Shown here piece by piece: positions 27,336 through 37,993 of a stretch of DNA of 49,476 nt (position 1 is the stretch's first letter; the number at the start of each line of letters is the position of its first letter). Position numbers and translations under genes: made by a program. The DNA lies in assembly GCA_902586695.1 (NCBI GenBank), contig CACIIL010000006.1, positions 1-49,476 on the forward strand, in the 5' to 3' direction. This stretch comes from an uncultured Alphaproteobacteria bacterium. Lineage in GTDB: Bacteria > Pseudomonadota > Alphaproteobacteria > HIMB59 > GCA-002718135. The notes beneath the pieces were generated by a model that saw only the letters and a list, made by a program, of their open reading frames with translations, did not search any database and was not told where the DNA came from.

Positions 27336-28934
27336 TTATAATTTATAAAATTCAATTTTTTTTACAATTGTCTTAATAGTTTCCTTAATGCCAAATAATT
27401 TGATAAACGATCCTAAACGAGGTCCTTGTTTTTGACCCAATATTACTTGATATACAAGTTGAAAATAATCTTTTAAATTTTCAAATTTATGATTTTTTCC
27501 AACCTCATAAAGTAATGTCTGAATTTCTTCAGATGTGCTATTTTCGTTTACCTTAAAATTCAAAACAGCCAGTATTTCTTCAAAAAGAGCTATATTATCA
27601 TTATCAATTTTCAAATATTTTTTGTTTGGTAAAACAAAATCATTATAATAATTAATTGCATGATCAATTAATTTATCAAATTCAGGATTATTAGAAGGAT
27701 TAATACTTTTATCGTATTGATTAACAAAGCCCCAAATTATTTTTTTATCATCAGTATTACATATACTAACAAGATTGGTTAGAGAATTAAAGGTTATATC
27801 TGATTTAAATCCTTTTGGATTTCCTGAATGTATATGCCAAATTGGACTATCAAATTTTTTTTCTTTTTCAAGATTTTCATAATTATTATAGTAAGAAATA
27901 TATTCATCTACTGTCTTTGGAATGACATCAAAAAAAAGTTTTTTTGCAGATTTAGGTTTTTGAAACATAAATAAAGATAAGCTTTCAGGGGAACCATAAC
28001 GTAACCATTCATCAACACTAATTCCATTACCTACTGATTTTGATATTTTTTCACCATTTTCATCTAAAAACATTTCATAAATTAAGTTTACTGGAGGTTT
28101 TTTTCCTATGGCTCTACAAATCTTTGAAGCTAGGTCTACGCTTTCTGTAAGATCTTTTCCGCACATTTCATAATCTACATCCAATGACATCCATCTCATA
28201 GACCAATCAACCTTCCATTGTAATTTACAATTACCACCTGTAACTAAAACTTCTACTTTTCTTTGATTTGTAGGTTCTGTGTAAACAATTGTATTTTTAT
28301 TTGGTCTATATTCTTCAATTTGTACTTGCAAAACATTACCAGTTTCTTGACTTATAGGTAAAAAAGGACTGTAAGTATTTTTTCTTTCTTTTCTTAATGT
28401 GGGTAAAATTATTTCAAGTATTTTTTGATAATTATGGAGAATTTCAATTATAATATTATCGAAGAATCCACTTTTGTATTTTTCAGTTGAGCTAACAAAA
28501 TCATAATCAAAATTAAATTTATCCAAAAACGATCTCAATTTTGCATTATTATGATGACCAAAACTTTCATATTTTTCAAAAGGATCAGGAATTGAAGTTA
28601 GAGGTTTACCAATATTTTCAGCCAGCATTTTTTTATTTGGAACATTTTCAGGTACTTTTCTTAAACCATCCATATCATCTGAAAATGTATATAACTTAGT
28701 TGGACAATCGATTAGGGACATAAAAGCATTCCTAACCATAGTTGTTCTAACAACCTCACCAAAAGTTCCTATATGTGGCAAGCCTGATGGACCATAACCA
28801 GTTTCAAATAAAATATAACCTTTATTTGGAGTTTTAAAATTTAACAAACCACCATTTCTTTTAATTAATTGTTGCGCTTCTTTAAAAGGCCAAGATTTTA
28901 AATCAGTTTGAATTTGTTTATTTGTATTATTCAT
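27336..28934 (-). CDS. lysS: Lysyl-tRNA synthetase, class I
   Basis: This is the archaeal-type class I enzyme, also found in many alphaproteobacteria and spirochaetes, rather than the common class II LysRS. The 532-aa protein has the HIGH-type motif GLPHIGTFGE (H54-T57) and the KMSKS-type motif KISKS (296-300, in ENGEKISKSVGNGIS). A helical anticodon-binding region forms the C-terminus. It overlaps the 3' end of a marR gene by 8 bp, so it should be co-transcribed with that regulator. Confidence 0.96.
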   Translation of the reverse strand: MNNTNKQIQTDLKSWPFKEAQQLIKRNGGLLNFKTPNKGYILFETGYGPSGLPHIGTFGEVVRTTMVRNAFMSLIDCPTKLYTFSDDMDGLRKVPENVPNKKMLAENIGKPLTSIPDPFEKYESFGHHNNAKLRSFLDKFNFDYDFVSSTEKYKSGFFDNIIIEILHNYQKILEIILPTLRKERKNTYSPFLPISQETGNVLQVQIEEYRPNKNTIVYTEPTNQRKVEVLVTGGNCKLQWKVDWSMRWMSLDVDYEMCGKDLTESVDLASKICRAIGKKPPVNLIYEMFLDENGEKISKSVGNGISVDEWLRYGSPESLSLFMFQKPKSAKKLFFDVIPKTVDEYISYYNNYENLEKEKKFDSPIWHIHSGNPKGFKSDITFNSLTNLVSICNTDDKKIIWGFVNQYDKSINPSNNPEFDKLIDHAINYYNDFVLPNKKYLKIDNDNIALFEEILAVLNFKVNENSTSEEIQTLLYEVGKNHKFENLKDYFQLVYQVILGQKQGPRLGSFIKLFGIKETIKTIVKKIEFYKL

Positions 28935-29388
28935 TATAGTTTGCTTTAATTCTTATTTTTTTACCCAATAACAATTTTAAAGAATTTATGAAATTATAAG
29001 TTTCTTGATTAAGTTTACTAAAAAAATCATTCTCAGTATTAATTACATCATTAATTATTTTTTTAACAATATTATTTCCCTCTTTTGTTAATTCTAATTT
29101 ATTAGATCTGTTGTCATTTGGTGTCATTTTTTTAATTAGCTTCTTTTTATTCAATTTAGTTAATTTAGCACTTACAACTGATTTATCTATAAATGAGTGT
29201 TTTACTATATCAACTTGACTAATATTATTTGAAATATCAGATAAATTATAAATGGTTTCTAATATTAAGTATTCATTAAAGGAAATATTAAATTTATTTA
29301 TTTTATTTCTAATTTTAGATTGCCACAGATTTGAAGTCTGCCAAATTAATAACCCTATTCTATTCTCATTAAGAGAAGTGTCTGCCAT
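28927..29388 (-). CDS. MarR family transcriptional regulator
   Basis: The 153-aa protein has the MarR winged-helix core: NEYLILETIYNLSD, then a recognition helix region VDIVKHSFIDKSVVSAKLTKLNKKKLIKK, then the wing MTPNDNRSNKLELT. I chose the ATG at 29388. A longer frame to 29436 would add 16 residues (SLQIKKVCIQIVCIQ) made by translating two DNA palindromes. Those palindromes are the likely operator. It overlaps lysS by 8 bp, so autoregulation would extend to lysS, pyrD and the HAD gene. The ligand is unknown. Confidence 0.88.
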   Translation of the reverse strand: MADTSLNENRIGLLIWQTSNLWQSKIRNKINKFNISFNEYLILETIYNLSDISNNISQVDIVKHSFIDKSVVSAKLTKLNKKKLIKKMTPNDNRSNKLELTKEGNNIVKKIINDVINTENDFFSKLNQETYNFINSLKLLLGKKIRIKANYNE

Positions 29389-29414
29389 TTGTATACAAAC
29401 TATTTGTATACAAA
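29388..29414. promoter_or_regulatory. Tandem perfect 12-bp palindromes, predicted MarR operator
   Basis: TTTGTATACAAA occurs twice, at 29388-29399 and 29403-29414, with centres 15 bp apart. Each copy is a perfect inverted repeat. The first overlaps the initial base of the marR ATG. On the minus strand the second contains a TATACA -10-like hexamer (29410-29405), with a TTTACA -35-like element at 29431-29426 (15-bp spacing, short). A bound regulator would block initiation. The repeats are seen directly; MarR binding is inferred from family habit and position. Confidence 0.7.
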
Positions 29415-29454: not shown

Positions 29455-29763
29455 TTATTCAGGCGCTAATTCCAATTCTAGACCATCAAGTTCTTCAGAA
29501 AGCTCAATTTGACAACTAAGCCTGGAGTTATTTTTAACATCAAATGCTTGATCTAACATAGACTCCTCTTCATCATCTTTTTGTTTAAGCTTATTAAGCC
29601 ATTTATCACTAATATAAACATGACATGTAGCACATGCACAACATCCGCCACACGCAGCCTCTATATCAAGTCCTTTATCTCTAATCACTTCCATTAAAGT
29701 TGAGTTATTATCTGCCTCCAATATATGTTTGTTACCTTCTCGATCAATAATTGATATTTTCAT
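29455..29763 (-). CDS. [2Fe-2S] ferredoxin, adrenodoxin type
   Basis: The 102-aa protein has the adrenodoxin-type cluster spacing: C38, C44, C47 and C84 (C-x5-C-x2-C...C), in ACGGCCACATCHV and RLSCQIEL. Two extra cysteines (C41, C42) lie in the loop. Such ferredoxins serve iron-sulfur assembly, hydroxylases and heme A synthesis. It overlaps a ferredoxin reductase gene by 4 bp, and that pair is divergent from ctaA. The downstream gap to marR is 66 bp. Confidence 0.93.
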   Translation of the reverse strand: MKISIIDREGNKHILEADNNSTLMEVIRDKGLDIEAACGGCCACATCHVYISDKWLNKLKQKDDEEESMLDQAFDVKNNSRLSCQIELSEELDGLELELAPE

Positions 29764-30776
29764 GTAGAATTAAGTTTTTTATGGAGATCTTTAGATGAAG
29801 TTGTATATCGAAATACATTTTTTTTATCAGGAAAACAATATTTAAAACATTCTTGAGCCATTAATGCTGCTTCATGAAAGCCTGATAAAATTAATTTCAA
29901 CTTACCTGGATATATATTGATATCACCGATAGCAAATATTGAAGGTTCTGAAGTTTCGAATTTTTCAGTATCTACTTTTATTAAATTTTTATCTAAATTT
30001 AATCCCCAATCTGCTATTGGACCTAGTTCCATTTTTAAACCAAAAAAAGGTAATAAAAAATCAACTTCATAATTTTTTGCTTCTTTATCATTTTTAACAA
30101 TAACTTTTATTTTTTCATTTTTTAATTCTTCAATATTTTGTATCTGACCAATTGAAAAAATAATTTTCTTTTCTTTTTCTAATTTAAGCATTTTAGAAAC
30201 TGAATCCGGAGCTGCTTTAAATTCTTTTCTTCTATGGATTAAAGTTACGTCCGCAATTTTTGATAATTCATTAGTCCAGTCTAAAGCAGAATCCCCACCA
30301 CCAGCAATGAGTAATTTACCTCCTTTAAATTTAGATTTATCCCTTATTGAATAAAAAATATTTTTACCTTCTAAATGATCAATATTTTGTAATGGAATCT
30401 TTCGAGGAACAAAACTTCCAGCCCCTCCAGCTATTACCAAGCATTTTGACTGTATTTTTTTATTTATGCTTGTTTCAACAAGCCACTCATTTGTTTCAAG
30501 TTTAGTTATTTTTTGAACTTGTTGGTTTAAATGATAAACAGGTTTAAATGGTTTTGCTTGTGCTATCAGATCATTAGTAAGTTCTTGCCCTGTAATACTA
30601 ATTCTTGATGGAATGTCATATATCGGCTTATCTGGATATAATTCAGCACATTGACCACCTGGTTTATCTAAATTATCAATAACATGGCAAGAAATATTCA
30701 ATAAACCTAGTTCAAAAATTGCAAATAAACCTACAGGTCCAGCACCAATAATTATAACATCAGTTTTTTCATTCAT
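29760..30776 (-). CDS. Ferredoxin-NADP reductase, thioredoxin-reductase-like
   Basis: The 338-aa flavoprotein has FAD motif IIIGAGPVGLF (residues 8-18), GGQCAELYPDKPIYDIPS, NADPH motif IAGGGDSALDW (157-167), LIHRRKEFKAAP and the C-terminal FAIGDINIYPGKLKLIL. There is no redox-active CxxC, which distinguishes the YumC-type ferredoxin reductase from thioredoxin reductase. I chose the ATG at 30776; the longer frame to 30851 would run into the divergent ctaA gene and adds 25 residues before the FAD motif. The 4-bp overlap with ferredoxin marks its partner. Confidence 0.93.
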   Translation of the reverse strand: MNEKTDVIIIGAGPVGLFAIFELGLLNISCHVIDNLDKPGGQCAELYPDKPIYDIPSRISITGQELTNDLIAQAKPFKPVYHLNQQVQKITKLETNEWLVETSINKKIQSKCLVIAGGAGSFVPRKIPLQNIDHLEGKNIFYSIRDKSKFKGGKLLIAGGGDSALDWTNELSKIADVTLIHRRKEFKAAPDSVSKMLKLEKEKKIIFSIGQIQNIEELKNEKIKVIVKNDKEAKNYEVDFLLPFFGLKMELGPIADWGLNLDKNLIKVDTEKFETSEPSIFAIGDINIYPGKLKLILSGFHEAALMAQECFKYCFPDKKNVFRYTTSSKDLHKKLNST

Positions 30777-30827
30777 GGTATTTAAATAACAAAATTTCTT
30801 ACTATTTCTATATAATATATTAATTTT
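30777..30827. promoter_or_regulatory. 51-bp divergent promoter region, ferredoxin reductase / ctaA
   Basis: A perfect TATAAT (30811-30816) stands 11 bp before the ctaA ATG, giving a leader of only a few bases. On the minus strand a TATTTA hexamer ends 6 bp before the reductase ATG. No clear -35 is visible for either. The region is all A/T-rich; promoter activity is inferred. Confidence 0.4.
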
Positions 30828-31874
30828 ATGCAATTTACCGAGATAAAACAAAACTATTATGGCTCAGTTATGCTGTGGCTGATTTTATTAACAATTATGG
30901 TGTTTTTAATAATCATAATTGGTGGTTTAACAAGATTAACTGATTCAGGATTGTCAATGGTAGATTGGCAGCCATTACTTGGAACTATTCCACCTTTAAA
31001 TTATAGTCAATGGATGGAGGTATTTGATAAATATAAATTAACTCCTGAATTTATTTACGTAAATAAAAATATGGAACTTGAAGAATTCAAATTTATTTTT
31101 TGGTGGGAATGGTTCCATAGATTTTTTGCAAGACTAATAGGGATTGTTTTTGTTTTTCCATTCATTTACTTTTTTTTAAAAAAATATCTAAACAAATTTT
31201 TTTATAAAAGATTTACAATCCTGTTTTGCCTAGGTTTGCTTCAAGCATTTGTTGGTTGGTGGATGGTAAAAAGTGGTTTAGTTAATGATCCTTATGTAAG
31301 TCAATATAGACTAACTTTTCACTTAATGAATGCTGTAATAATTTACTGTTTACTAGTATGGACATGTATAGAATATTATTTTTTTAAAAATATGCGTTTT
31401 ATATCGTCTTTTAATAGTAAAGAATTTTGGATATTTTTATGCATCTCTTTAGTCTTTTTGACAATTTTAAGTGGTGGATTTATGGCAGGTTCTCATGCTG
31501 GACAATCCTTTAATACTTATCCGTTAATGAATGGCAAAATCATACCTGATGATATTTATTTAGTAGATTTAGGAATTTTAAACATTTTTGAAAATGTTGT
31601 AACTATAAATTTTAATCATAGGTGGCTTGGTACGCTCACTTTTATTTTTACTTTTTCACTTTTTAGTTATCTAATTTTTAATAATTTTATAAAATTATCA
31701 AATAAAATTATCGTAATAGTGTTAGTGGTTTTAACATTCCAATTTACACTTGGTATAATGGCATTACTATCAAATGTTGCTATACAATATGGAAGTTTAC
31801 ATCAAACAAATTCAATTGTTTTATTAACAGTACTTTTGTTTGCTTATTTCAAATCAAAATTAAATGCAGGATAA
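30828..31874 (+). CDS. ctaA: Heme A synthase (COX15/CtaA)
   Basis: CtaA oxidises the C8 methyl of heme O to a formyl group, making heme A for aa3-type cytochrome oxidase. The 348-aa integral membrane protein has about eight helices and four conserved histidines, H97 (WFHRFFARLIG), H165 (LTFHLMNA), H264 (NFNHRWLGTL) and H325 (GSLHQTNS), which ligate hemes in the two halves. The GGLTRLTDSGLSM N-terminal motif is intact. It is divergent from a ferredoxin reductase-ferredoxin pair, which could be its electron supply. Confidence 0.96.
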   Translation: MQFTEIKQNYYGSVMLWLILLTIMVFLIIIIGGLTRLTDSGLSMVDWQPLLGTIPPLNYSQWMEVFDKYKLTPEFIYVNKNMELEEFKFIFWWEWFHRFFARLIGIVFVFPFIYFFLKKYLNKFFYKRFTILFCLGLLQAFVGWWMVKSGLVNDPYVSQYRLTFHLMNAVIIYCLLVWTCIEYYFFKNMRFISSFNSKEFWIFLCISLVFLTILSGGFMAGSHAGQSFNTYPLMNGKIIPDDIYLVDLGILNIFENVVTINFNHRWLGTLTFIFTFSLFSYLIFNNFIKLSNKIIVIVLVVLTFQFTLGIMALLSNVAIQYGSLHQTNSIVLLTVLLFAYFKSKLNAG

Positions 31875-34636: not shown

Positions 34637-34837
34637 ATGATTGATTCTAATAAATTAATAGGAAAGCTTAAAGAGTTGGAGCAAGAACATTCAGATCTTG
34701 ATCAAATTTTAATTCAGTTACAAGAAAAACATACAGTTGATTTTTTACAAATACAAAGATTAAAAAAAAGAAAGTTAGCTCTTAAAGACAAAATCACACA
34801 TTTAAAAAATGATTTAGAGCCAGATAGTATTGCTTAA
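34637..34837 (+). CDS. YdcH-like DUF465 protein
   Basis: The 66-aa protein is a helical hairpin of the DUF465 family: LKELEQEHSDLDQILIQL, then FLQIQRLKKRKLALKDKI. Family members are small coiled-coil proteins of unknown function. An upstream frame open to 34565 adds 24 hydrophobic, unrelated residues overlapping the pfk 5' end, so I chose the ATG at 34637. The stop overlaps convergent COQ9 by 4 bp. Confidence 0.87.
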   Translation: MIDSNKLIGKLKELEQEHSDLDQILIQLQEKHTVDFLQIQRLKKRKLALKDKITHLKNDLEPDSIA

Positions 34838-35475
34838 TTAAAATTTTTTATAATTTTTAAAATATTTGGAAAATTATTTTTAAGAAGTTTTATTTTTAAT
34901 TTTAACTCTGGAATTTTGGAAACTCTTTTTAAATTAGTATCTATAATTTCCTCTAATTTGTCTTGGTTATTGTTGTTAAAAAAAAATAGTAAAACTCTTG
35001 TATAAATACCAGCTAATATTAATCTTTTTGTATAGTAATTAAAATCAACTGAAGTATCACCTGCGATTATCCAAATTTGATTTACAGAATTGTAAAGTTG
35101 ATTAGATATAGAAAGGTTTTTTTTCGGAAGTAGTATACTTAAAAAAATTTTTCTATAAAAATCTTTTTCTTTATCCATTAATAAAATTTTACAAAGTAAT
35201 ATTTTTTTTATTCTTTTATGAAGAGGTAATTTTATTAAATTTAATTTTTTACAATATTTTTCAAGATCATTGTTTAATTGATCCAATGTAAATTTAATAA
35301 TATCACTATTACCTTGGGGAAAAAGAAGATTTATTTCATTTTCATTAATATCATAATCATTTGACATCAATTTTATTGTGTCAGACCTTAATCCATTTCT
35401 TCTAATAGATTTTTTAAAAAATTTTAAAATTTCTAATCTTTTATTTAAAAGAAATTTATTTTGATTCTTTAGCAT
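34834..35475 (-). CDS. COQ9 family ubiquinone biosynthesis protein
   Basis: The 213-aa helical protein has the COQ9 C-terminal signature QIWIIAGDTSVDFNYYTKR followed by LILAGIYTRVLLFFF, and an N-terminal segment LLFPQGNSDIIKFTLDQL in place of the TetR-like helix. COQ9 binds isoprenoid lipids and presents quinone intermediates to COQ7-type hydroxylases at the membrane. It overlaps def by 20 bp, so they share a transcript. Sequence outside the signature is diverged and lysine-rich. Confidence 0.88.
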   Translation of the reverse strand: MLKNQNKFLLNKRLEILKFFKKSIRRNGLRSDTIKLMSNDYDINENEINLLFPQGNSDIIKFTLDQLNNDLEKYCKKLNLIKLPLHKRIKKILLCKILLMDKEKDFYRKIFLSILLPKKNLSISNQLYNSVNQIWIIAGDTSVDFNYYTKRLILAGIYTRVLLFFFNNNNQDKLEEIIDTNLKRVSKIPELKLKIKLLKNNFPNILKIIKNFN

Positions 35476-36089: not shown

Positions 36090-36287
36090 ATGACACTGCA
36101 AGTAAATGTAAAAGACAATAATATCGAGCAAGCTCTAAGAAGTCTTAAAAAAAAGATGCAAAGAGAAGGTCTTTATAAAGAAATGAAACTAAGAAAACAT
36201 TTTGAAAAACCTTGTTTAAAAAGGGCTAGGGAAAAAGAAGAAAATATTCGTAGAGCAAGAAAAACAGCAAGAAGAAATAATATTTAA
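36090..36287 (+). CDS. rpsU: 30S ribosomal protein S21
   Basis: The 65-aa basic protein matches S21: [20 protein letters not shown], then [20 protein letters not shown] and a KTARRN tail. The frame extends upstream to 36051, but those 13 residues ([12 protein letters not shown]) are not S21-like, so the ATG at 36090 is preferred. The stop overlaps convergent pntB by 4 bp. Confidence 0.95.
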
Positions 36288-37675
36288 CCTAAACTTTTAA
36301 CTATATCCTCACACATCTTTTTAGCATCACCAAATAACATAGTTGTGTTATCTCTATAAAAAAGTTCGTTATCTACACCGGAGTAACCCGTAGCCATTGA
36401 CCTTTTTATAAATAAAACAGTTTGAGATTTTTCAACATCCAATATTGGCATTCCATAAATTGGTGAAGACTTGTCTGTTTTTGCAGCGGGATTTGTTACA
36501 TCATTAGCACCAATTACAAAAGAAACTTCTGTCATAGGAAAATCATGGTTAATTTCTTCTAATTCTAAAACTTCTTCATACTCTACATTTGCTTCTGCTA
36601 ATAATACATTCATGTGACCTGGCATTCTTCCTGCTACTGGATGAATAGCATATCTAACATTTATGCCTTCATTTTTTAATATATCACTCATTTCTCTTAA
36701 TGCATGTTGTGCTTGTGCAACTGCCATACCATAACCAGGTACTATTATAACTGAGTCTGCATTCTTTAAAACATAAGCTGCGTCTTCAGCATTTCCTTGT
36801 TTTACAACTTTATCAGAATTGTCTGAAGATGAACTAGAAGATTGTTCTCCACCAAAACCTCCTAGAACAACACTTATGATTGATCTATTCATTCCTTTAC
36901 TCATTATGTAACTAAGAATAGCTCCAGAAGCACCGACAAGTGCTCCAGTAATAATAAGCAAATTGTTACTTAAAGTGAAACCAATACCACAGGCAGCCCA
37001 ACCAGAGTAAGAGTTTAACATAGATACTACAACTGGCATGTCAGCACCACCAATAGGAATTACAACCAAAAAACCAAGTATAATTGAAACTAAAACTATT
37101 GACCAAAATATTGTAGGTGATTGGTTTCTTACAAATAAAAATATAAGAATAATAATAAATATTAAAATTAAAGCATTAATACTGTGTTGAAATTTAAATA
37201 CAATGGGTTTGCCAGACACAGTACCTTGAAGTTTTCCAAAAGCTAAAACAGATCCAGAAAATGTAATAGCTCCAATAAAGGTTCCTATACTCATTTCAAT
37301 TAAGCTACTCATTCCAATTGATCCAATATTTCCAATACCAAATGCCATAGGATCATAAAATGCAGCAGCAGCAACAAAAACAGCAGCTATACCTACTAAA
37401 CTATGAAAAGCTGCTACCAATTGAGGAAGAGCAGTCATTTCTATTCTTAAAGCAATAAATGTACCTATTGCCCCTCCTACTAAAATTGCTGAACCTATTT
37501 CAACATAACTAAGTACAGATTTAAACATAAGCGTAGTAATAATTGCAATAATCATACCAACTACTCCAAATATATTACCTAATCTAGATGACTCTGGATG
37601 TGATAAACCCCTAAGAGCAAAAATGAATAATAGAGCTGATACAAGATATAAAATTGCAACTATGTTAGATGACAT
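36284..37675 (-). CDS. pntB: NAD(P) transhydrogenase subunit beta
   Basis: PntB carries most of the proton channel and the NADP(H)-binding domain III of the energy-linked transhydrogenase, which uses the proton gradient to make NADPH. The 463-aa protein has eight or nine N-terminal helices (to about residue 265), then after a Ser-rich linker domain III with [46 protein letters not shown] and [17 protein letters not shown]. It is the last gene of pntAa-pntAb-pntB (3-bp spacing). Confidence 0.97.
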
Positions 37676-37678
37676 CTA

Positions 37679-37993
37679 TTAAGCCTTTTTTTGTTTTTTC
37701 GTTTTCTTCTTAAACATCGACAACATCCTGTATGTAACTATAAAGCCCCCAAAAATGTTTACTGATGCAAGAACAACTGCAATAATTCCAAATATTTTCG
37801 AAGTTTCATAACCAAGAGGTCCTGCTGCAAGGATAGCTCCAACAATAATAACACTTGAAATTGCATTTGTTACACCCATTAATGGACTATGTAAAGCAGG
37901 TGTAACTGACCAAACAACATAGTAACCAATTATACATGCTAAAAAAAATACAGTTAAACCTATAACAAAAACTTCTGAACTATGAGCTTCCAT
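37679..37993 (-). CDS. pntAb: NAD(P) transhydrogenase subunit alpha 2 (membrane part)
   Basis: The 104-aa protein has three or four transmembrane helices with the family motif YYVVWSVTPALHSPLMGVTN and GGFIVTYRMLSMF. It supplies the membrane helices that in E. coli are fused to PntA; in alphaproteobacteria they are a separate gene. The tail is lysine-rich (FKKKTKKQKKA). It directly abuts pntAa. Confidence 0.95.
   Translation of the reverse strand: MEAHSSEVFVIGLTVFFLACIIGYYVVWSVTPALHSPLMGVTNAISSVIIVGAILAAGPLGYETSKIFGIIAVVLASVNIFGGFIVTYRMLSMFKKKTKKQKKA

Follow-up and report, generated by a model that had tools for sequence, protein, structure and literature searches.

A ferredoxin and ferredoxin reductase gene pair divergent from heme A synthase in an uncultured alphaproteobacterium: a candidate electron supply for CtaA

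The window analyzed here, the whole stretch of 49,476 nucleotides (G+C 26.6%), belongs to a 1.12-Mb assembly that is 75% complete. The MarineAlpha5_Bin7 assembly and several single-cell genomes, AG-457-A08 among them, are its named relatives. Genomes of the AEGEAN-169/HIMB59 group measure 1.26–1.84 Mb with 27–32.5% G+C (PMC10308909), and the host, a streamlined alphaproteobacterium, is probably marine. Three genes of the window are considered. On the reverse strand, fnr (30776 down to 29760, 338 aa) is followed by fdx (29763 down to 29455, 102 aa); on the forward strand, ctaA (30828–31874, 348 aa) is read away from them across a spacer of 51 bp (30777–30827). The start codon of fnr lies at 30776, and its TGA stop codon (29762–29760) shares the letters ATGA with the fdx ATG (29763–29761), giving a 4-bp overlap. 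The first-pass annotation had reported the fdx/fnr overlap and the divergence of the pair from ctaA over 51 bp, and its coordinates and gene order proved exact. The next gene downstream of fdx, also on the reverse strand, encodes a MarR-family regulator (28927–29388, 153 aa counted from the ATG).

The fdx product contains a CX5CX2C...C motif and an acidic helix, DDEEESMLD, and matched the Pfam family Fer2 over the cut-off (E 2.7e-11). Cys38, Cys44, Cys47 and Cys84 were invariant in an alignment with 13 relatives. Among proteins of solved structure, the nearest relatives were the R. palustris ferredoxin 3hui, Arx, Yah1, R. capsulatus FdVI, S. pombe Etp1 and human FDX2. The structure modeled with AlphaFold, at a mean pLDDT of 86 and less reliably in the cluster loop, aligned over its full length with members of the adrenodoxin family (Arx, Z 19.7; FDX2, Z 18.7; Etp1, Z 18.4); Z scores were about 16–20 against crystal structures and 13.7 against the NMR structure of Yah1. 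By both the solved relatives and the model matches, this ferredoxin groups with Yah1, Etp1 and FDX2. The acidic recognition helix, followed by SRLxCQ (DDEEESMLDQAFDVKNNSRLSCQ), aligned with the helices of Yah1 and FdVI. Judged by its ligands, modeled fold and acidic helix, the protein is an adrenodoxin-type [2Fe-2S] ferredoxin. With the ISC ferredoxin equivalog TIGR02007 it scored 71.3 bits, below the cut-off of 132.1 bits. One related genome (G001, genus g2) encodes another adrenodoxin-type ferredoxin besides, a divergent one with about 40% identity (L073:3172-3489).

The fnr product matched Pfam Pyr_redox_2. Its best match of solved structure was 5ygq, 'Ferredoxin--NADP reductase', which aligned over the full length including its YTTSS extension (E 5e-114), the corresponding C-terminal extension of the window protein being RYTTSSKDLHKKL. 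We take 5ygq to be the thioredoxin-reductase (TrxR)-type ferredoxin--NADP+ reductase (FNR) of Rhodopseudomonas palustris, and the window protein is 53% identical to a homologue from that species. The CxxC redox pair is absent from its sequence. By sequence criteria, fnr encodes a TrxR-type ferredoxin--NADP+ reductase of the YumC/RpFNR kind. A thioredoxin reductase identity was rejected for lack of CxxC, and an adrenodoxin reductase (Arh1/FDXR) identity was rejected as well, all solved matches at E < 1e-10 being TrxR-type FNRs or thioredoxin reductases. The initial description of the reductase as YumC-like rather than Arh1-like was therefore correct.

The ctaA product matched Pfam COX15-CtaA (PF02628) with E 4e-100 and 335 bits, the cut-off being 29.9. 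The catalytic Glu94 and His97, His165, His264 and His325 were invariant in 10 relatives, and these features assign the predicted protein to heme A synthase (CtaA/Cox15). It matched the alphaproteobacterial CtaA equivalog NF045570 over nearly the full length at 264.8 bits, below the cut-off of 550 bits, and we therefore regard it as a divergent member. Taken together, the Pfam assignments (Fer2, Pyr_redox_2 and COX15-CtaA) and the solved-structure matches confirm the identities first given to the three genes.

In a sample of the family comprising 110 genomes from six genera (g1–g6), ctaA, fnr and fdx were adjacent in nearly all genomes of g1, g2, g3, g5 and g6 whose contig covers the locus, so that five of the six genera have the three-gene linkage. 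In genus g4, ctaA remains in the block, facing a MarR gene, and fnr–fdx is found elsewhere as an intact pair. The wider neighborhood of about 30 genes is syntenic across the family, and because the three genes lie inside this conserved block, their linkage at the family level adds little independent weight. The same block holds a COQ9 homologue (34837–35475) and NAD(P) transhydrogenase genes (36287–37993); in yeast mitochondria, COQ6-type hydroxylation also uses ferredoxin. Two local variants were seen. In part of one genus, a short-chain dehydrogenase gene lies between ctaA and a DUF6134 gene (L087:7584-8306, in G078 and relatives), and in G029 a shikimate kinase open frame occupies the contig end where fnr is expected beside fdx (L091:5743-6198), by rearrangement or assembly error.

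The ctaA–fnr spacer measured 51–53 bp in 66 of 74 relatives. Its core, with the element AAATAACAACTTTT...ATTTCTA, was conserved, and the spacer is a candidate shared promoter or operator. This element was missing upstream of ctaA and upstream of fnr in the groups where the two genes are split, genus g4 and the sister family f2. Its conservation, and its absence where the genes are split, weakly suggest shared control of ctaA and fnr. A scan of the 51-bp spacer with the sigma-70 consensus gave no match. The palindrome TTGTATACAA matched twice in the window, both times at 29389–29413, immediately before the start codon of the MarR gene, and none of 100 shuffles gave two matches; the palindromes are probably a MarR operator. 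They are retained in relatives. In genus g4, where the MarR gene adjoins ctaA divergently, they sit between the two genes, and MarR may therefore control ctaA there.

Outside the family, the linkage takes a different form. In the sister family f2, one of whose genomes is a single contig of 1,410,127 bp, ctaA is directly divergent from fdx over about 105 bp and fnr is located elsewhere; the locus continues with homologues of the genes that come next in the window (27339, 26284 and beyond). In family f130, fdx lies beside ctaA in all four genomes, joined by fnr in one, and the gene order resembles that of the Micavibrio assemblies L130 and L150. A gene of 265–298 aa, assigned to no family by Pfam or PHROGs, travels with fdx and ctaA in f130 and the Micavibrio assemblies (L181:8568-9362, L188:6807-7670 and L150:7020-7913). 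Further cases of ctaA–fdx linkage were found in families f16, f102 and f118. The constant partner of ctaA is thus the ferredoxin and not the reductase. In a tree of fdx built on few columns, the window sequence grouped with those of f2, f130, f16 and f102, apart from the clade that neighbors fnr in Hyphomicrobiales.

The frequency of the pairing outside the family was estimated in the 54 genomes of a class-wide sample for which the positions of both ctaA and fdx were known. Among the matches listed, the two genes lay within 8.1 kb of each other in 11 of the 54 genomes and 5 of 29 families, against a random expectation of about 0.3 genomes and 0.2 families; because the listed matches are the best-scoring ones, this set is enriched for window-like proteins. 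With these counts among the matches listed, and with the family-wide adjacency, chance placement was rejected. Conservation across all alphaproteobacteria was also rejected: with one ctaA locus inspected per family in about 65 families, a 6-kb radius around ctaA held no ferredoxin in most, and f118 and f130 were the only families with fdx in that range to be added to those found linked before. The linked families may share ancestry. These observations establish the ctaA–fdx linkage as a recurrent but minority pattern of the class. Accordingly, the arrangement is not confined to the window genome, being present in five of six genera, with ctaA–fdx linkage in five other families, and the expectation that it would be conserved across alphaproteobacteria held for its recurrence in those families and failed for the majority, which are unlinked. 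Most alphaproteobacterial families are without the linkage, so that their CtaA can do without a ferredoxin gene close by.

Adrenodoxin-type ferredoxins classically serve IscU and cytochrome P450. Targeted family searches, run on partly incomplete genomes, found neither in 13 genomes of the order (0/13 each), and SUF was found in 12 of the 13; these rival clients are thus missing from the searched set, an ISC or P450 role for fdx is disfavored, and heme A synthase becomes a leading remaining client. Other clients to be expected of a ferredoxin are IspG and IspH of the MEP pathway, radical-SAM enzymes and possibly ubiquinone hydroxylases. A search of 18 genomes for Fer2 domains placed nearly all other matches in larger open frames (about 260–930 aa), the few short frames looking like pieces. 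By this search, nearly every genome of the order that has fdx encodes no other stand-alone Fer2 ferredoxin, G001 being the exception, and a single Fer2 ferredoxin for the whole cell can hardly be dedicated to CtaA. Moreover, fnr and fdx are both present in complete genomes that lack ctaA (G168, G233, G308, G315, G327, G394 and G406), and the wider fdx family was found in 71 of 103 ctaA-negative genomes.

Loss of fdx gave a further view of its role. Flavodoxin is encoded in 7 of the 110 family genomes. It takes the position of fdx after fnr in G100 (L080:5366-5800), lies between fnr and fdx in G019 (L083:5967-6398) and G097 (L082:7470-7913), and is found at another, common location in four other genomes (L267–L270). 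G095 is without fdx and has flavodoxin elsewhere in the genome; in the related G101, which is 77% complete, fdx was absent and flavodoxin was not found. On the fnr tree, the losses of fdx fall on two separate branches, and flavodoxin occurs in both lineages. All three genomes without fdx (G100, G095 and G101) retain ctaA. A general electron carrier would be expected to be lost in this way, from lineages that have flavodoxin, and if CtaA is a client of fdx, it must accept flavodoxin where fdx is gone.

The reading that we favor, and consider somewhat better than an even proposition, is that fnr and fdx form a general NADPH–reductase–ferredoxin supply that is not dedicated to heme A synthesis and that most likely counts CtaA among its main clients. 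The two genes, which appear translationally coupled, would pass electrons from NADPH through the FAD-containing reductase to the [2Fe-2S] ferredoxin, the reduction of Fdx by FNR being expected from the FNR family, and this chain would be the cell's general source of single low-potential electrons. The gene ctaA is probably transcribed in the opposite direction from the 51-bp spacer that it shares with fnr. Reduced Fdx may use its acidic helix to bind CtaA at the cytoplasmic face and reduce heme b, and CtaA with its heme b reduced would then oxidize heme O to heme A using O2. Electron donation from Fdx to CtaA is suggested by the gene linkage and by the precedent of yeast Arh1–Yah1–Cox15. The pair is a good candidate, neither proven nor exclusive, for the donor of bacterial heme A synthase. 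Thus the idea of a ferredoxin chain for heme A synthase survives in its core, carried by the gene identities, the recurrent ctaA–fdx linkage and the missing IscU and P450, and is given up as regards dedication and class-wide conservation. A broader proposal, which we put forward tentatively and would sooner doubt than accept, is that this fdx subfamily is the physiological reductant of alphaproteobacterial heme A synthase, the ancestral counterpart of Yah1–Cox15, with flavodoxin feeding CtaA where the ferredoxin has been lost.

The strongest competing explanation is that fnr–fdx is a general housekeeping chain whose closeness to ctaA is inherited gene order, CtaA being served by another donor such as the quinol pool or another flavoprotein. 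The synteny of the whole neighborhood in the family, the removal of the intact pair from ctaA in genus g4, the presence of both genes in complete genomes without ctaA and the unlinked state of most families are all in line with it. Inherited order accounts poorly, however, for linkage in five outside families, usually divergent and set in otherwise differing neighborhoods, for the pairing of ctaA and fdx where fnr is gone (f2 and f130) and for the conserved shared spacer, and we consider this explanation unlikely. A chain of fnr and fdx devoted to heme A synthesis alone, which the title of the first-pass annotation proposed, is consistent with the divergent three-gene arrangement and with the failure to find IscU or P450 in the order. 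The finding of no stand-alone Fer2 ferredoxin besides fdx in nearly all these genomes, the retention of fnr and members of the fdx subfamily in complete genomes lacking ctaA, the separability of the pair from ctaA in g4 and the two losses of fdx in lineages where flavodoxin occurs speak against such dedication, which we judge very improbable. Slimmer still is the prospect that fdx is an iron–sulfur cluster assembly ferredoxin in the ISC Fdx/FDX2 role with ctaA as an incidental neighbor: its fold and sequence are near FDX2 and Yah1 and its family is common in ctaA-negative genomes (71/103), but IscU was found in none and SUF in 12 of the 13 genomes of the order, and 71 bits against 132 falls short of the equivalog cut-off.

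Of the general supply that we favor, the parts are ordinary; the pairing of ctaA with a ferredoxin, which recurs in distant families, offers a useful lead, open to test, on the donor to bacterial heme A synthase. In a lineage in which IscU and P450 were not found, the pairing focuses the search for the donor on a single ferredoxin and supplies defined proteins for reconstitution, and the lineages that lost fdx and have flavodoxin would bear on whether a flavin carrier can also serve heme A synthase. Text searches of a review of bacterial oxidase assembly (PMC9145763), of a study on purified Aquifex enzyme (PMC7327177) and of the section on synteny in a large survey of heme A synthases (PMC12808453) showed no donor to bacterial CtaA being named, and our literature search found no paper describing ferredoxin as a neighbor of bacterial ctaA.

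Comparison with known systems places the locus between several precedents. As in the window, ctaA lies outside the cox operon in the neighborhoods described for type 2 heme A synthases; in the synteny account of the survey of these enzymes, the neighbors named for ctaA are ribosomal S9/L13 and other housekeeping genes and, unlike in the window, ferredoxin and FNR are not mentioned (PMC12808453). The TrxR-type FNR of R. palustris, whose structure has been solved and which was judged to run from NADPH to ferredoxin (PMC9137726), resembles the window protein in full length, in its C-terminal extension and in the lack of CxxC. In Rhodopseudomonas and other Hyphomicrobiales, in contrast to the window, the ferredoxin near fnr mostly belongs to another clade and ctaA is not close by. 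R. capsulatus ferredoxin VI and the R. palustris and Novosphingobium ferredoxins (1e9m, 3hui, 4ltu and 3lxf) are like fdx, with 40–44% identity and Z scores of 17.5–19.7; some of these serve P450s (3hui, the CYP199A2 system), whereas no P450 was found in the 13 genomes of the window's order. In yeast, Yah1 and Arh1 supply Cox15 (PMC7140478, PMC13213658). The yeast reductase is of the adrenodoxin-reductase type and that of the window a TrxR-type FNR; Yah1 also serves ISC, for which no partner was found in the window's order; and the window genes, unlike Arh1–Yah1–Cox15, are associated with ctaA by gene neighborhood only. Nevertheless, Yah1 and the adrenodoxin-like ferredoxin domain of S. pombe Etp1 are among the closest solved relatives of fdx, and in both systems an adrenodoxin-type ferredoxin and a pyridine-nucleotide-dependent reductase are associated with a COX15/CtaA enzyme.
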